From assembly GCA_020072805.1 (NCBI GenBank), contig JAIQGC010000005.1, positions 35,902 through 99,901 on the forward strand: 64,000 nucleotides of DNA, read 5' to 3'. This DNA is from Terriglobia bacterium (lineage in GTDB: Bacteria > Acidobacteriota > Terriglobia > Acidiferrales > UBA7541). Shown here in pieces: positions 21,165 to 58,335 of this stretch. The first letter of the stretch is position 1. Each line of letters opens with the position of its first letter. The notes below the pieces were generated by a model. It saw nothing but the letters and a program-made list of their open reading frames with translations. It did no database searches and was not told where the DNA came from. The position numbers and the translations under genes are program-made.

Positions 21165-21746
21165 TTATTTTTTGTGAAGTTTGGTGCACACGGCGATGGC
21201 GCTGTTGGGATTGACGGCGCCGGTGCCTTCCTCGACGTGCTGGATGACGCCCTGCTTGTCCACCACGAAGGTAGTTCGCTGGGCCCATTCGTATTCGTCT
21301 TTCTCCACGTCGTAGAGCTTCAGGATGCCGTACTGCTTGAGCACCTTGCGATTCATGTCGCTCAGCAGGGGGAAGGTGACCCCGAGTTTTTCCGCGAAAG
21401 CGTTGTTGGCCGCCGGGCTGTCAATGCTGATGCCCAGCACGACGGTGTCCGCCGCGTCCAGTTTTTGCCTATCAGCCTGATAGGCTTGCAATTCCTTCGT
21501 TCAACCTTCGGTGAAGGCCAGAACGTAGAAGGCCAGGACTACGTTCTTCTTGCCGCGAAAATCGCCCAGGTGCACCGGCTTCCATTTATTGTCGAGCAGG
21601 GTGAAGTCCGGCGCCGTGTCTCCCACCTTCAGGCTGGTATGCGCCACGCCGGCCTGCGGCACGGGTTCTCCCGCGGGCAGGCGGGAGGCCACTCCCCCAG
21701 CGATGAGCGCAGCGAGCGCCGCGGCTGCGAAACCTTTTAAGTTCAT
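21165..21746 (-). CDS. Exported peroxiredoxin, predicted selenoprotein (UGA at the peroxidatic position)
   Basis: 193 residues if UGA at 21503-21501 is read as selenocysteine 82. The track splits it into 21501-21812 and 21165-21491. The pieces join in one frame: [14 protein letters not shown], then [22 protein letters not shown], then [18 protein letters not shown] and TTFVVDKQG, a full AhpC/TSA-type thioredoxin fold. The peroxidatic Cys of this family sits exactly where UGA lies. A hairpin 15 nt after UGA fits a bacterial SECIS element. The only Cys left is in AVCTKLHKK near the C-terminus, a possible resolving residue. Residues 1-28 look like a signal peptide. ATG 21746 has GCGAGG upstream. 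A nonsense mutation is the alternative. No sel genes lie in the window. Confidence 0.85.
21467..21485 (-). other. Candidate bacterial SECIS hairpin
   Basis: On the minus-strand mRNA, 15 nt after the UGA, GCCUAUCA pairs perfectly (8 bp) with UGAUAGGC around the triloop GGC. The loop begins 23 nt after the UGA and has G in its first two positions. Known bacterial SECIS rules ask for a 16-37 nt distance and a G in the first two loop positions; both are met. It lies inside the coding sequence, as bacterial SECIS elements do. Confidence 0.8.
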
Positions 21747-21845
21747 GAAACCTCGCTTTCTCTGGAAAGATTGGACCCGGCAGAAGTATACGCCGGGGAA
21801 GGGGCGCGGCAAACGTGTATTCAGAGCGGCTGTCTTAGCCCGTGG

Positions 21846-22103
21846 TCAGCGAAGGCGGCCGGGCGGATCGGCCGGCGGCGGCATGGCCTGGGAGCGCGAG
21901 GTGGCGGGGGAGTTCGGAGAGAGCTTCGCGGGAGCGGGCTGGGGGAGGCCCACGCCGGCGTTGAGGTCGTAATGCTCCTTGCCGCAGCGGGGGCAGAAGC
22001 CCTTGCCGGTGTCCTCGTCGCGCAGGCTGGCCAGTTCGTAGCATCCGCAGATGCAATCGCAATAGCCGGTTTCCGAAGCGGTCTTGATGGGGACCAGAGC
22101 CAT
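21846..22103 (-). CDS. Small cysteine-rich zinc-ribbon-like protein
   Basis: 85 residues. Residues 11-45 hold CDCICGCYEL and CPRCGKEHYDL, a cluster of six cysteines suited to bind zinc; the rest is a Pro/Ala-rich tail. ATG 22103 is chosen because the longer track ORFs run through non-coding sequence; GGAGG lies 12 nt upstream. No function can be assigned. It sits between the peroxiredoxin and the HD-GYP regulator, all on the minus strand. Confidence 0.55.
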   Translation of the reverse strand: MALVPIKTASETGYCDCICGCYELASLRDEDTGKGFCPRCGKEHYDLNAGVGLPQPAPAKLSPNSPATSRSQAMPPPADPPGRLR

Positions 22104-22180
22104 GAGGAAAAGACCTCCGGGGCGAAAGTGTATGCGCAGCGGGCGGCGCGCGCAAGGTCCGCTTGGCGGCCGGGCGGCGC

Positions 22181-23260
22181 TCAGAGATTCTGCAAATGGG
22201 CCAGGCGGAAAGGGGACTCCAGGTTGCGCCGCAATTCGATCCAATGGGTGTCCGGGATGGCCATGAAAACCTCGACGACCTGGGGATCAAACTGCGTGCC
22301 GGAGCAGCGCTTGACCTCGTCGCGGGCGTGGGCGATGGGCAGGGCGCGGCGGTAAGGGCGGTCGGAAATCATGGCGTCGACGGCGTCGGCGATGGAGAAA
22401 ATGCGCGCGCCCAGGGGAATCTCCTCGCCCTTCAAGCCGCGGGGATAGCCCGAGCCGTCGTAAAACTCCTGGTGCGCCAGAACGATTTCCGCGGCGTCGC
22501 GCAGGAAGGGAATGCGGGTGAGCATGTTGTAGCCGATTTCGCAGTGGGTTTTCATGACGACGCGCTCATCGTCATTGAGCGGGCCGGGCTTGCGCAGGAT
22601 GCCGTCGGGGATGGCCATTTTGCCGATGTCGTGCAGGAAAGCGGCGCGGGCCAGAATGGGCAGAAATTCCGAGGGAACCTCCATGGCCTTGGCGATGGAA
22701 ATGGTGAAGGCGGTGACGCGCTGGCAATGGCCCTCGGTCTCCGCGTCGCGCAGGTCCAGCGCGCTGCCCAGTGCTTCCAGGGTGTCGTCGTAGGACTGCT
22801 CGAGCTGGGTGAGCGCCCCGGAGAGCTGCGCGGTGCGCTCCTCGACGAGGTCCTCCAGATTGCGCTGGTAATTGCGGTTTTCCAGGATCAGCCGGCGGTG
22901 CTGAAGGGCGCGCCGCACGCTCAGAAACAACTGGTCCTTTTCAAACGGCTTGAGGATGTAGTCGTAAGCGCCGCGGCGGATGGCTTCGAGCGCCGTGGAG
23001 ATGTCGTGGATGGCCGTGACCATGATCACCGGAACGTCGGCGTCGTATTCCCGCAGCCATTCCAGCAGGCGCATCCCGTCCATCTCGGGCATGATCATGT
23101 CGCTGAGGACCAGGTCGGGAAGGAATTTGGGCGCCAGTTCCTGGGCGGCCCGCCCGTTGGACGCGGTCATGCACTGAAAGCCCTGGGCTTCCAGCAGGGT
23201 AGAGACGACTTCCCGGATCGGTTCTTCGTCGTCCACGACCAGTATTTTTTCAGTGTCCAC
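22181..23260 (-). CDS. Response regulator with HD-GYP phosphodiesterase domain
   Basis: 359 residues. A receiver domain at residues 1-120 has the phosphoacceptor Asp54 (VLSDMIMPEMDG) and the KPF lysine. A short coiled linker follows, then an HD-GYP domain with HDIGKMAIPD, the HCEIGYNML helix and HQEFYDGSGYPRGLKG. HD-GYP domains degrade cyclic di-GMP, so phosphorylation probably controls the level of that messenger. It is divergent from a very large histidine kinase (23509), its likely partner. A GGDEF cyclase lies elsewhere in the window (53006). Confidence 0.92.
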   Translation of the reverse strand: MDTEKILVVDDEEPIREVVSTLLEAQGFQCMTASNGRAAQELAPKFLPDLVLSDMIMPEMDGMRLLEWLREYDADVPVIMVTAIHDISTALEAIRRGAYDYILKPFEKDQLFLSVRRALQHRRLILENRNYQRNLEDLVEERTAQLSGALTQLEQSYDDTLEALGSALDLRDAETEGHCQRVTAFTISIAKAMEVPSEFLPILARAAFLHDIGKMAIPDGILRKPGPLNDDERVVMKTHCEIGYNMLTRIPFLRDAAEIVLAHQEFYDGSGYPRGLKGEEIPLGARIFSIADAVDAMISDRPYRRALPIAHARDEVKRCSGTQFDPQVVEVFMAIPDTHWIELRRNLESPFRLAHLQNL

Positions 23261-55578: not shown

Positions 55579-58335
55579 TCAGGAGTGCATCGCGCCGCCT
55601 ATCAGGGCCACCAGACGAGGGGGCGTAGCAGGGAGATGGTGGATTCGAATTCCCATGGCGTCGGCGATGGCGTTGGCGATGGCGGGGGCCACAGCCACTG
55701 TCGCACACTCGGCTACGCCCTTGGCTCCGAGGCTCGCCGAGGGATCCACCATCTCCACCATCAACGGGACGACTTCGGGGGTTTCGCGCATGGTGGGAAT
55801 GCGGTATTGCTTAAAGCCCTTGGTCTCGCCGGGGTGGAATTCCTCTTTGAGGGCCAGCCCCATTCCCATAGACACGGCTCCTTCTATCTGTCCTTTCAGC
55901 CCTTGAGCAAAGATAACGCGTCCCACATCGTGGGCAGCTACTACCCGGAGCACCCGCACTGTCCCCTTTAGGGTGTCGACCTCCACCTCCGCCATGTGCG
56001 TCGCGGACACATGCACCAGATACGGGCTGGGGTTCCCGCTCAGCGAATCGCGCACGGGGACGGGATGGAAGCTTCCCTCGAACCGCAGGGGAAGCCCTGC
56101 CGACAGCCTGGCCCGGGCCACTTCCGCCAAGGACATTCTCCTCTCGCAAGCGCCAGCCGTTCTTCGCGTAACCACAAGTCCTTCTCTCAGTTCCAGGTTC
56201 TCGGAGGGGATTTCCAGCAGTCCGGATGCCGTCGAAAGGATGGCCTCCTTGAGCCGGGCGGCTGCCTCCTTCACCGCGTTGCCCTCGGTATAGATGACCC
56301 GGCTGCCCGAGGAGGGGCCGGTGTCGGGGGTGCGAGTGGTGTCGCCACTCACCACCGACACCGATTCCAGCGGCAACGCCAGCTCGCCGCTGACGACGAG
56401 CGCCAACGCGGTGTCGGTACCCTGGCCCATATCTATGGCTCCAGTGAAAAGGCGCACACGGCCATCGCTCTCCAGCTCCAAGGCTGTCTCCGGCGGTTGG
56501 GCCGTGGCGTAGCCGATGCCATACCGCATGGAGGCTATTCCCACTCCGCGACGCCGTCGGCCATCGCTCGGAGCGCTGGCCTGCCGTGCCCGCAACGCGT
56601 CCTCATAGTAGGGACGGACAGCCTCAAGGGTTCCCCGGTAGGCCTCCTCCTGCTCCATGTCCTGAGGTGTTGCCTCAGCAGCATTCGACTTGCGGCGATT
56701 CATTAACCGGAACTCCAGAGGGTCGATGCCCAACTTGGCAGCCATGATGTCCATCTGGGACTCGATGGCAAAGGCTACTTGTGGGGCACCGAAGCCACGC
56801 ATGGCGCCGGCCAAGGTGTTGTTGGTGTACACGACCCGCCCATGGATCAACACATGGGGGAACTGATAGGGGCCCACCAGAGACACAAAAGCCCGGATCA
56901 TAATTTCGGGGCCCGCCGAGGCGTAGGCCCCCGTATCAGCCAGCACCTCCGCGGCGAGGGCTGTGAGCCGGCCATCCCGGGTCACGCCCGTCCGGCAGCG
57001 CATTCGGAAGGGGTGCCTCTTCGTGGTGGAGGAGAAGGACTCGGCGCGGCTGTAGACGATCTTTACCGGATGACCTGTCTTCAAAGCGAGAAGGGCCGCG
57101 ACGCACTCGCAGGAGACATCCGTCTTGCCGCCGAAGGCACCGCCCACCACAGTGGGCAAAATGCGCACCTGCTCTAGCGGCAGGTCCATGGTCTCGGCCA
57201 CGATCCTGCGGTGCAGGTGAGAGTGCTGGGTGGCCGATCGCACTACCAAGCGCCCTTCGTTGTCCCGGTAGGCCAAGGCCGACTCCGGCTCCAGGTAAGC
57301 GTGCTCGCAAAATGGCGTGGTGTACGTCTCATCCACCACGATATCTGCCTGGGCCAGCGCTGTTTCAACATCGCCCCAGTGGACCTCTCTCTCGGCCAGA
57401 AGGTTGCCGCTGTCGTGGACCAGCGGGGCGCCCTCCTTCAGGGCCTCGCTGGGATCCAGGATTGCCGGAAGAGGCTGGTAGCTTACGCGAATCAGCGACA
57501 GCGCCTGGGCCGCTGTCTCCGCCGAGGTCGCGGCAACGGCAGCCACCGCATCCCCGATCTGGCGGACCCGGCCATCAGCCAACACGGGCTGATCCTTGAC
57601 GGTTCGCCCGAAGCGATTGAGTCCGGGCACATCCCGGGCCGTTACTACGGCCGCTACACCCGGCAGGGCTCGGGCTTCGCGATCATCGATGTGGAGGATG
57701 TCGGCGCGAGGGTGAGGGCTCCGCAGAACCGCTCCATGAAGGATGCCGGGCATTGTAAGATCGGCGGCATAAAGAGCGGTGCCCAGCACCTTGTCTTGCG
57801 CATCGGCCCGCCGGTGCGCCTCGTCCGACACTTGGGGCTCCGGGCACGGGACGCCCCTGCCAAGATCGGCTGCGCGAGTGACCGCTTCGAGGATGCTCGT
57901 GTAGCCGGTGCAACGGCACAGGTTGCTCCCCAGGGCTTTGACGATCTGCTCCCGGGTCGGGGCGGGATTGCGGTCCAGCAGCGCCTTGGCCGCCATGATC
58001 ACTCCCGGCGTGCAGAAACCGCACTGGACGGCATCGGCTTTGATGAAGGCTTCCTGCAAGGGATGAAGTCGCTCGGGGGTCCCTAGTCCCTCGATGGTCA
58101 AAACAGCTTTGCCTTTCACACGAGCCACGGGGACGCGGCAGGCGCGAGCCATCGCGCCGTTCACGATGACCGTACAGGTGCCGCAGGTACCATCATCGCA
58201 GCCCTGCTTGGTGCCAGTGAGGCCAAGAACATCACGCAACGCCCCCAGGAGAGTCTGGCGAGGATTTACCAATAGCTGGTGCTCCTTGCCGTTGACGTTT
58301 AGCGTTAGATGGGTCTTGGCTGATTTTTTCTGCAC
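55579..58335 (-). CDS. Molybdenum hydroxylase: fused [2Fe-2S] and molybdopterin domains (xanthine dehydrogenase family)
   Basis: 918 residues from GTG 58335, which has GAGAGGAAGG seven bases upstream; the track uses GTG 58374. Residues 1-75 are a plant-type ferredoxin (GCDDGTCGTC), 75-160 a second [2Fe-2S] domain (CGFCTPG, CRCTGY), then the molybdopterin part with GGAFGGKTD and the catalytic Glu in GAKGVAE. No FAD domain is present, as in Desulfovibrio aldehyde oxidoreductase. The substrate is not determined (aldehyde or aromatic heterocycle). No molybdenum-cofactor gene is nearby. Confidence 0.88.
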   Translation of the reverse strand: MQKKSAKTHLTLNVNGKEHQLLVNPRQTLLGALRDVLGLTGTKQGCDDGTCGTCTVIVNGAMARACRVPVARVKGKAVLTIEGLGTPERLHPLQEAFIKADAVQCGFCTPGVIMAAKALLDRNPAPTREQIVKALGSNLCRCTGYTSILEAVTRAADLGRGVPCPEPQVSDEAHRRADAQDKVLGTALYAADLTMPGILHGAVLRSPHPRADILHIDDREARALPGVAAVVTARDVPGLNRFGRTVKDQPVLADGRVRQIGDAVAAVAATSAETAAQALSLIRVSYQPLPAILDPSEALKEGAPLVHDSGNLLAEREVHWGDVETALAQADIVVDETYTTPFCEHAYLEPESALAYRDNEGRLVVRSATQHSHLHRRIVAETMDLPLEQVRILPTVVGGAFGGKTDVSCECVAALLALKTGHPVKIVYSRAESFSSTTKRHPFRMRCRTGVTRDGRLTALAAEVLADTGAYASAGPEIMIRAFVSLVGPYQFPHVLIHGRVVYTNNTLAGAMRGFGAPQVAFAIESQMDIMAAKLGIDPLEFRLMNRRKSNAAEATPQDMEQEEAYRGTLEAVRPYYEDALRARQASAPSDGRRRRGVGIASMRYGIGYATAQPPETALELESDGRVRLFTGAIDMGQGTDTALALVVSGELALPLESVSVVSGDTTRTPDTGPSSGSRVIYTEGNAVKEAAARLKEAILSTASGLLEIPSENLELREGLVVTRRTAGACERRMSLAEVARARLSAGLPLRFEGSFHPVPVRDSLSGNPSPYLVHVSATHMAEVEVDTLKGTVRVLRVVAAHDVGRVIFAQGLKGQIEGAVSMGMGLALKEEFHPGETKGFKQYRIPTMRETPEVVPLMVEMVDPSASLGAKGVAECATVAVAPAIANAIADAMGIRIHHLPATPPRLVALIGGAMHS

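Follow-up and report, generated by a model that had tools for sequence, protein, structure and literature searches.

The window (the whole stretch of DNA that was analysed, 64,000 nt) carries on its minus strand a gene that runs in a single frame from ATG to TAA with one interruption, a TGA (Table 1). Residues 41-170 of the read-through protein match Pfam AhpC-TSA (E = 2.9e-35), on both sides of the UGA, which is aligned with the peroxidatic Cys (aftegCtke in the window protein, aftqvCtke in 2ywn). The initial annotation had put the UGA at exactly the peroxidatic position of an AhpC/TSA peroxiredoxin, within one continuous and family-like frame; the alignment to 2ywn and a Pfam match that crosses the UGA bear out both points. 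Its remark that ORF callers split the gene into two fragments also holds: Table 11 ORF calling yields ORFs of 103 and 108 aa.

Table 1. Features at the predicted selenoprotein peroxiredoxin locus (window coordinates)
Feature	Position	Strand	Basis
Sigma-70-like promoter match, TTGCCG-16-TATACT	21785..21812	-	Consensus match only; 1 found vs 0.1 expected
Complete predicted selenoprotein CDS, 193 residues with Sec82, exported-type AhpC/TSA peroxiredoxin	21165..21746	-	Frame, Pfam, AlphaFold model
Predicted N-terminal export signal, ~residues 1-26 (n-region MNLKG, then 14-residue h-region)	21669..21746	-	Hydropathy/charge test
Val75, where the definitive Prx proline of Pxxx(T/S)xxC belongs	21522..21524	-	Alignment; motif per PMC5302317
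Thr79 of the TxxU motif	21510..21512	-	Nearly invariant in A1; Sec members T 93/95, S 2/95
In-frame UGA, predicted Sec82, peroxidatic position	21501..21503	-	UGA or Cys only in orthologue column
Predicted SECIS hairpin, GCCUAUCA-GGC-UGAUAGGC, over codons U+6 to U+12	21467..21485	-	Folding, orthologue covariation, published rules
Arg157, conserved catalytic arginine	21276..21278	-	Invariant in A1; R in 95/95 Sec members
Cys187, sole Cys besides Sec, candidate resolving residue, C-terminal helix 181-192	21186..21188	-	Conservation, AlphaFold helix
Intrinsic-terminator-like hairpin immediately 3' of stop codon	21135..21158	-	Consensus match; 1 found vs 1.4 expected in shuffles

The gene is probably monocistronic. 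A conserved redox operon was sought around the orthologue loci and not found, the only recurring neighbours being an upstream HD-GYP response regulator (~14 loci) and a small Cys-rich ORF (~7 loci). This ORF (CDCICGC...FCPRCGKEHYDL) has no Pfam match and lies upstream, at 21846-22244 on the minus strand. Elsewhere in the window, 57596-57651 (minus strand) in this bacterial genome matches Rfam RF03144, a euryarchaeal ribosomal-protein leader, barely above the gathering score; this is probably chance.

The product is predicted to be exported, by a simple test for a hydropathy and charge pattern; the same test finds a positive n-region followed by a hydrophobic stretch in 70 of 75 orthologues as well. 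An AlphaFold model (mean pLDDT 88) has the Prx fold, with U82 in helix 80-91 and the C/U position at the start of helix 2. Its closest solved folds are Bcp4, BCP, Bcp1, and AhpE, with target-normalised TM-scores of up to 0.89.

Among distinct orthologue sequences with a score of 350 or more, the codon in the UGA column is UGA in 95, TGC or TGT in 11, and any other codon in none, so that this check on the homologues gives Sec (UGA) or Cys only. A UGA orthologue occurs in 55 genomes among 101 relatives, and UGA genes make up nearly all of the strongest matches in 396 genomes drawn across Acidobacteriota; the Sec peroxiredoxin family is spread across the phylum. Viral contigs gave one weak relative; among plasmids, 228 records matched, all at less than 60% identity, and neither set was informative. 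Genomes that were assembled independently, among them Candidatus Acidiferrum typicum and Terriglobia SRVP_26, have the same UGA and hairpin, and because of this recurrence a miscall of TGC or TGT can in practice be discounted. In the segments that were compared, the Ca. Acidiferrum typicum sequence does not differ from that of G033, a genome listed in the same genus as the window, so the window genome is a Ca. Acidiferrum-level relative in Acidobacteriota.

Seven of the Cys sequences form one clade nested within the Sec sequences of the window's genus (tree, 99 SH-aLRT). Members of this clade have lost the hairpin and retain the Val that Sec forms have at the proline position, and most of their genomes still hold a UGA paralogue and selA. 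This is a Sec-to-Cys reversion with hairpin loss, nested inside the genus.

The window genome (3.98 Mb in 157 contigs, 99.8% complete) encodes selA (549 bits), selB (354 bits), selD (347 bits), and a tRNA-Sec with UCA anticodon (selC), i.e., all four of the genes for which the initial annotation suggested looking. None of the three things it had named as telling against its reading (a genome without selB or selC, homologues with residues other than Cys or Sec in the column, TGC or TGT in place of TGA) was found. Of the 55 genomes with a UGA orthologue among the 101 relatives screened, 52 have selA above the cut-off; the three with a UGA gene and no selA over it are MAGs (G025, G042, and G058), each 59-85% complete. 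The selD gene of the window genome (L018, G000:C94:18911-19876) is itself interrupted in frame by TGA, at the canonical Sec position (KAAGUAAKL), which brings the predicted selenoproteins of this genome to at least two.

The hairpin starts 15 nt past the UGA and has a perfect 8-bp stem (21485-21478 with 21474-21467); its GGC loop (21477-21475) begins after 23 nt from the UGA, and its MFE is -11.3 kcal/mol. The published model of bacterial SECIS elements has a loop of 3-9 nt with G in its first two positions, an upper stem of 4-16 bp, a distance of 16-37 nt from the UGA, and an MFE of -7.5 kcal/mol or lower (PMC13188914), and the window hairpin satisfies all of these rules. The geometry first described for it (15 nt, 8 bp, GGC loop, 23 nt) was reproduced in full, and its claimed agreement with known bacterial SECIS rules was confirmed on the PMC13188914 values. 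Compared with dinucleotide shuffles, the window-gene hairpin has a z of -2.8, with 2 of 200 equally stable. Compared with synonymous recodings of the same stretch its energy is unremarkable (z -0.85), and because that value is not significant the energy of this single gene is not taken as proof. The mean synonymous-recoding z is -1.57 for 67 UGA genes vs -0.5 for 11 Cys genes. Energy by itself being weak for the window gene, the above-chance evidence for the hairpin comes from the orthologues.

Standard pairing at the four apical positions of the stem is found in 48, 48, 47, and 46 of the 48 distinct UGA orthologues with the main hairpin type, whereas the 11 Cys orthologues have it in 1, 10, 7, and 2; the apical pairs are kept through compensatory changes in nearly all UGA orthologues and lost in the Cys orthologues. 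Across 31 distinct hairpins, 92% of cells pair and 17 cells are changed on both sides, a number reached by 0 of 500 shuffles. Sliding the hairpin register collapses the pairing signal, the actual register being best by far, and the first loop nucleotide is G in 70 of 70. Codon choice follows the stem as well. Where UGA genes of this hairpin type have Ala at U+9, its codon is GCT in 46 of 46, vs 1 of 9 Cys genes (Fisher 7e-9; family background for GCT 16%). The codons at U+7 and U+10 are coupled: TAT occurs with GAT (one GAC), TAC with GGT or GGC, and GTC or CTC with GGA. The stem is therefore kept while the amino acids at U+9 and U+10 change.

A second group of UGA peroxiredoxin paralogues (AFYI/VFAFTGGU..QNFQQNL; L082, L084, L085, L088, L091-L097, L099-L102) has a different downstream hairpin, CUUCCAGC/GCUGGAAG, with 8 bp and a 13-nt loop, longer than the 3-9 nt of the published model.

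Taken together, the Sec machinery, the UGA/Cys column, the hairpin covariation, and the nested reversion argue that the UGA is read as Sec and that the gene is neither broken nor misread. It is very probably a functional bacterial selenoprotein gene, in which UGA 82 would specify the Sec of an exported PrxQ/AhpE-like peroxidase. The assembly is, to be sure, a draft, and one substitution would be enough to make a pseudogene, or to turn by sequencing or assembly error the TGC or TGT of a Cys peroxiredoxin into TGA. But the same UGA recurs in 95 distinct orthologues from many different families of Acidobacteriota, each of which keeps the reading frame beyond it, and the hairpin covaries in the UGA forms and is absent from the Cys versions, so that an error or a pseudogene has next to no likelihood. 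That the UGA is a true stop, leaving an 81-residue fragment, or that the two parts are genes in their own right (a TTG lies at 21491 in the downstream one), agrees with the two Table 11 ORFs. In every orthologue, however, the break coincides with the catalytic residue, stop codons other than UGA are not seen at this site, and UGA orthologues co-occur with selA; judging from the AlphaFold model, moreover, halves of a single thioredoxin-fold domain would be unlikely to fold separately. A true stop is very improbable. On these comparative data, sequencing error, true stop, and pseudogene were all rejected.

An equally slight chance attaches to the idea that selection on the protein sequence or on a DNA-binding site, and not a SECIS function, preserves the palindrome in codons U+6 to U+12. 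It does overlap a conserved peptide, AYQAD; yet a Cys gene with the same peptide (L081) uses GCG GAC, which breaks the stem, while changes of A-D to D-G and A-G retain pairing, and the spacing, loop G, and energy all match SECIS rules. Gene structure, the UGA/Cys column, hairpin conservation, and Sec machinery are all supported by the analysis.

From these features we infer a course of events in which SelB and Sec-tRNA(Sec) would decode UGA 82 as selenocysteine, steered by the hairpin 15 nt downstream, and the product would cross the inner membrane. The Sec82 selenolate would then attack peroxide, held in place by Thr79 and Arg157, giving a selenenic acid; the C-terminal-helix residue Cys187 would probably resolve this by forming a selenenylsulfide within the protein, and an exported thioredoxin-like protein would then reduce the bond. 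Both Sec and Cys forms keep Cys187, which is present in at least 90% of A1 and in 105 of 106 distinct members. The initial annotation had singled out a "single remaining C-terminal Cys"; this is indeed the sole Cys of the protein, but with 105 of 106 members sharing it, it is not peculiar to this gene.

In classical PrxQ the resolving Cys follows CP at a distance of five residues, within helix 2. The window protein has no Cys at +5 (UTKELQ), and 1-Cys AhpE is among its best solved relatives; both observations would suit a 1-Sec peroxidase whose direct reductant is an external thiol, as in AhpE, with Cys187 structural or intermolecular. Such an enzyme would equally be a selenoprotein, and we regard it as a real possibility, somewhat on the doubtful side. 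Against it stands the near-universal Cys187 of Sec and Cys forms, placed within the C-terminal helix; atypical 2-Cys Prx5 enzymes also have their resolving Cys in a C-terminal helix. An exported peroxidase in which Cys187 is the residue resolving the selenenic acid is the likely form of the selenoprotein reading.

A more unusual feature than Cys187, overlooked in the initial annotation, is the Val at position 75. The proline of Pxxx(T/S)xxC is considered definitive for the peroxiredoxin superfamily (PMC5302317) and strictly conserved (PMC5719442). The TxxU motif is present in the window protein (T79-E-G-U82), and of the features of the superfamily the fold, the T/S, and the distant Arg are all found; the definitive Pro is not, though homology is plain regardless. 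Among the 95 core Sec members the proline position is V in 71, I in 19, S in 2, L in 1, and P in 2 (non-Pro in 93 of 95). More distant Sec homologues have P in 15, V in 4, and A in 2, and more distant Cys homologues have P in 7 of 7. The Cys group L087/L089/L090 has Pro, which the derived Cys clade lacks. This distribution points to Pro loss having taken place on Sec backgrounds; a test of Pro loss against Sec by independent pairs was not significant, with too few pairs. The Val may entail catalytic detail differing from that of textbook peroxiredoxins. Tentatively, and with rather less than even confidence, one may go further and propose a distinct, undescribed exported subfamily of Acidobacteriota in which Sec made the proline dispensable, its loss occurring on Sec only and Val being kept after reversion. 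If this is true, Sec chemistry relaxes a near-invariant constraint of the peroxiredoxin active site. The family makes a clean test case for asking if an enzyme with selenocysteine can do without the definitive proline.

TxxU peroxiredoxins form an established family of selenoproteins that goes back to PrxU of Eubacterium acidaminophilum (PMC9312934, PMC13188914), as the initial annotation had recognized, and were already common in the Sargasso Sea (PMC1088965). The window protein shares with this group (COG1225/PF00578) the AhpC/TSA fold, Sec in TxxU, and an in-frame bacterial SECIS; unlike PrxU-type proteins, it has a predicted export signal and Val for the Pro of PxxxTxxU, and it scores 58.3 bits against the 270-bit cut-off of the PrxU equivalog NCBIfam NF040737. 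Its best solved PrxQ/BCP and AhpE relatives are 2ywn, 3hjp, and 1xvw/4x0x, with ~35-39% identity to the closest PrxQ/AhpE structures (3hjp and the AhpE entries). The T and Arg are common to all of these, and the AF(T/S)xxC-like stretch is as in AhpE; Sec for Cys, Val for Pro, the lack of the PrxQ Cys at +5, the predicted signal peptide, and the conserved C-terminal-helix Cys set the window protein apart. The UxxC/UxxU Prx-like thiol:disulfide oxidoreductases and the thiol peroxidase Prx-SUH are likewise selenoproteins of AhpC-TSA-type thioredoxin fold, but the window protein has UTKE in place of UxxC, and reaches 38.5 bits against a cut-off of 298 for Prx-SUH (NF045827). None of the NCBIfam models searched matched it at cut-off.

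The protein is of an established kind (TxxU), here as a predicted exported, proline-less variant spanning a phylum; what distinguishes it is the predicted export signal, the Acidobacteriota-wide spread, the conserved C-terminal Cys, and the loss of Pro. Searches of the open-access literature turned up no account of a Sec peroxiredoxin family in Acidobacteriota that is exported and lacks the Pro. A 2006 count for Acidobacteria gave four selenoproteins in three families (PMC1794560), and three known selenoprotein genes were detected by deep-Sep in a single acidobacterium, Occallatibacter riparius (PMC12013277). The present family adds one that is phylum-wide and clearly selected, in abundant soil bacteria, and provides a recent Sec-to-Cys reversion with SECIS loss within one genus that retains the Sec machinery. 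Standard gene calling splits these genes, and the window protein lies beyond the curated NCBIfam models.

Further UGA peroxiredoxins were seen in Acidobacteriota. Sec peroxiredoxin genes occur as tandem pairs at L054, L055, L075, L076, and L103, both members having UGA and most having SECIS-like hairpins. In G404, G231, G222, G185, G365, and others of the genus coded g113, the stretch matched to the peroxiredoxin contains the Sec TGA and one extra in-frame TAG or TAA. One additional UGA subfamily has the sequence FYPLDWTPVUTVQMPSYEAD (L155, L156, L158-L161, L164-L166), and another, with a Cys at U+4, has WFPKAFTGGUTLECKSLRESG (L162, L163, L167, L168).
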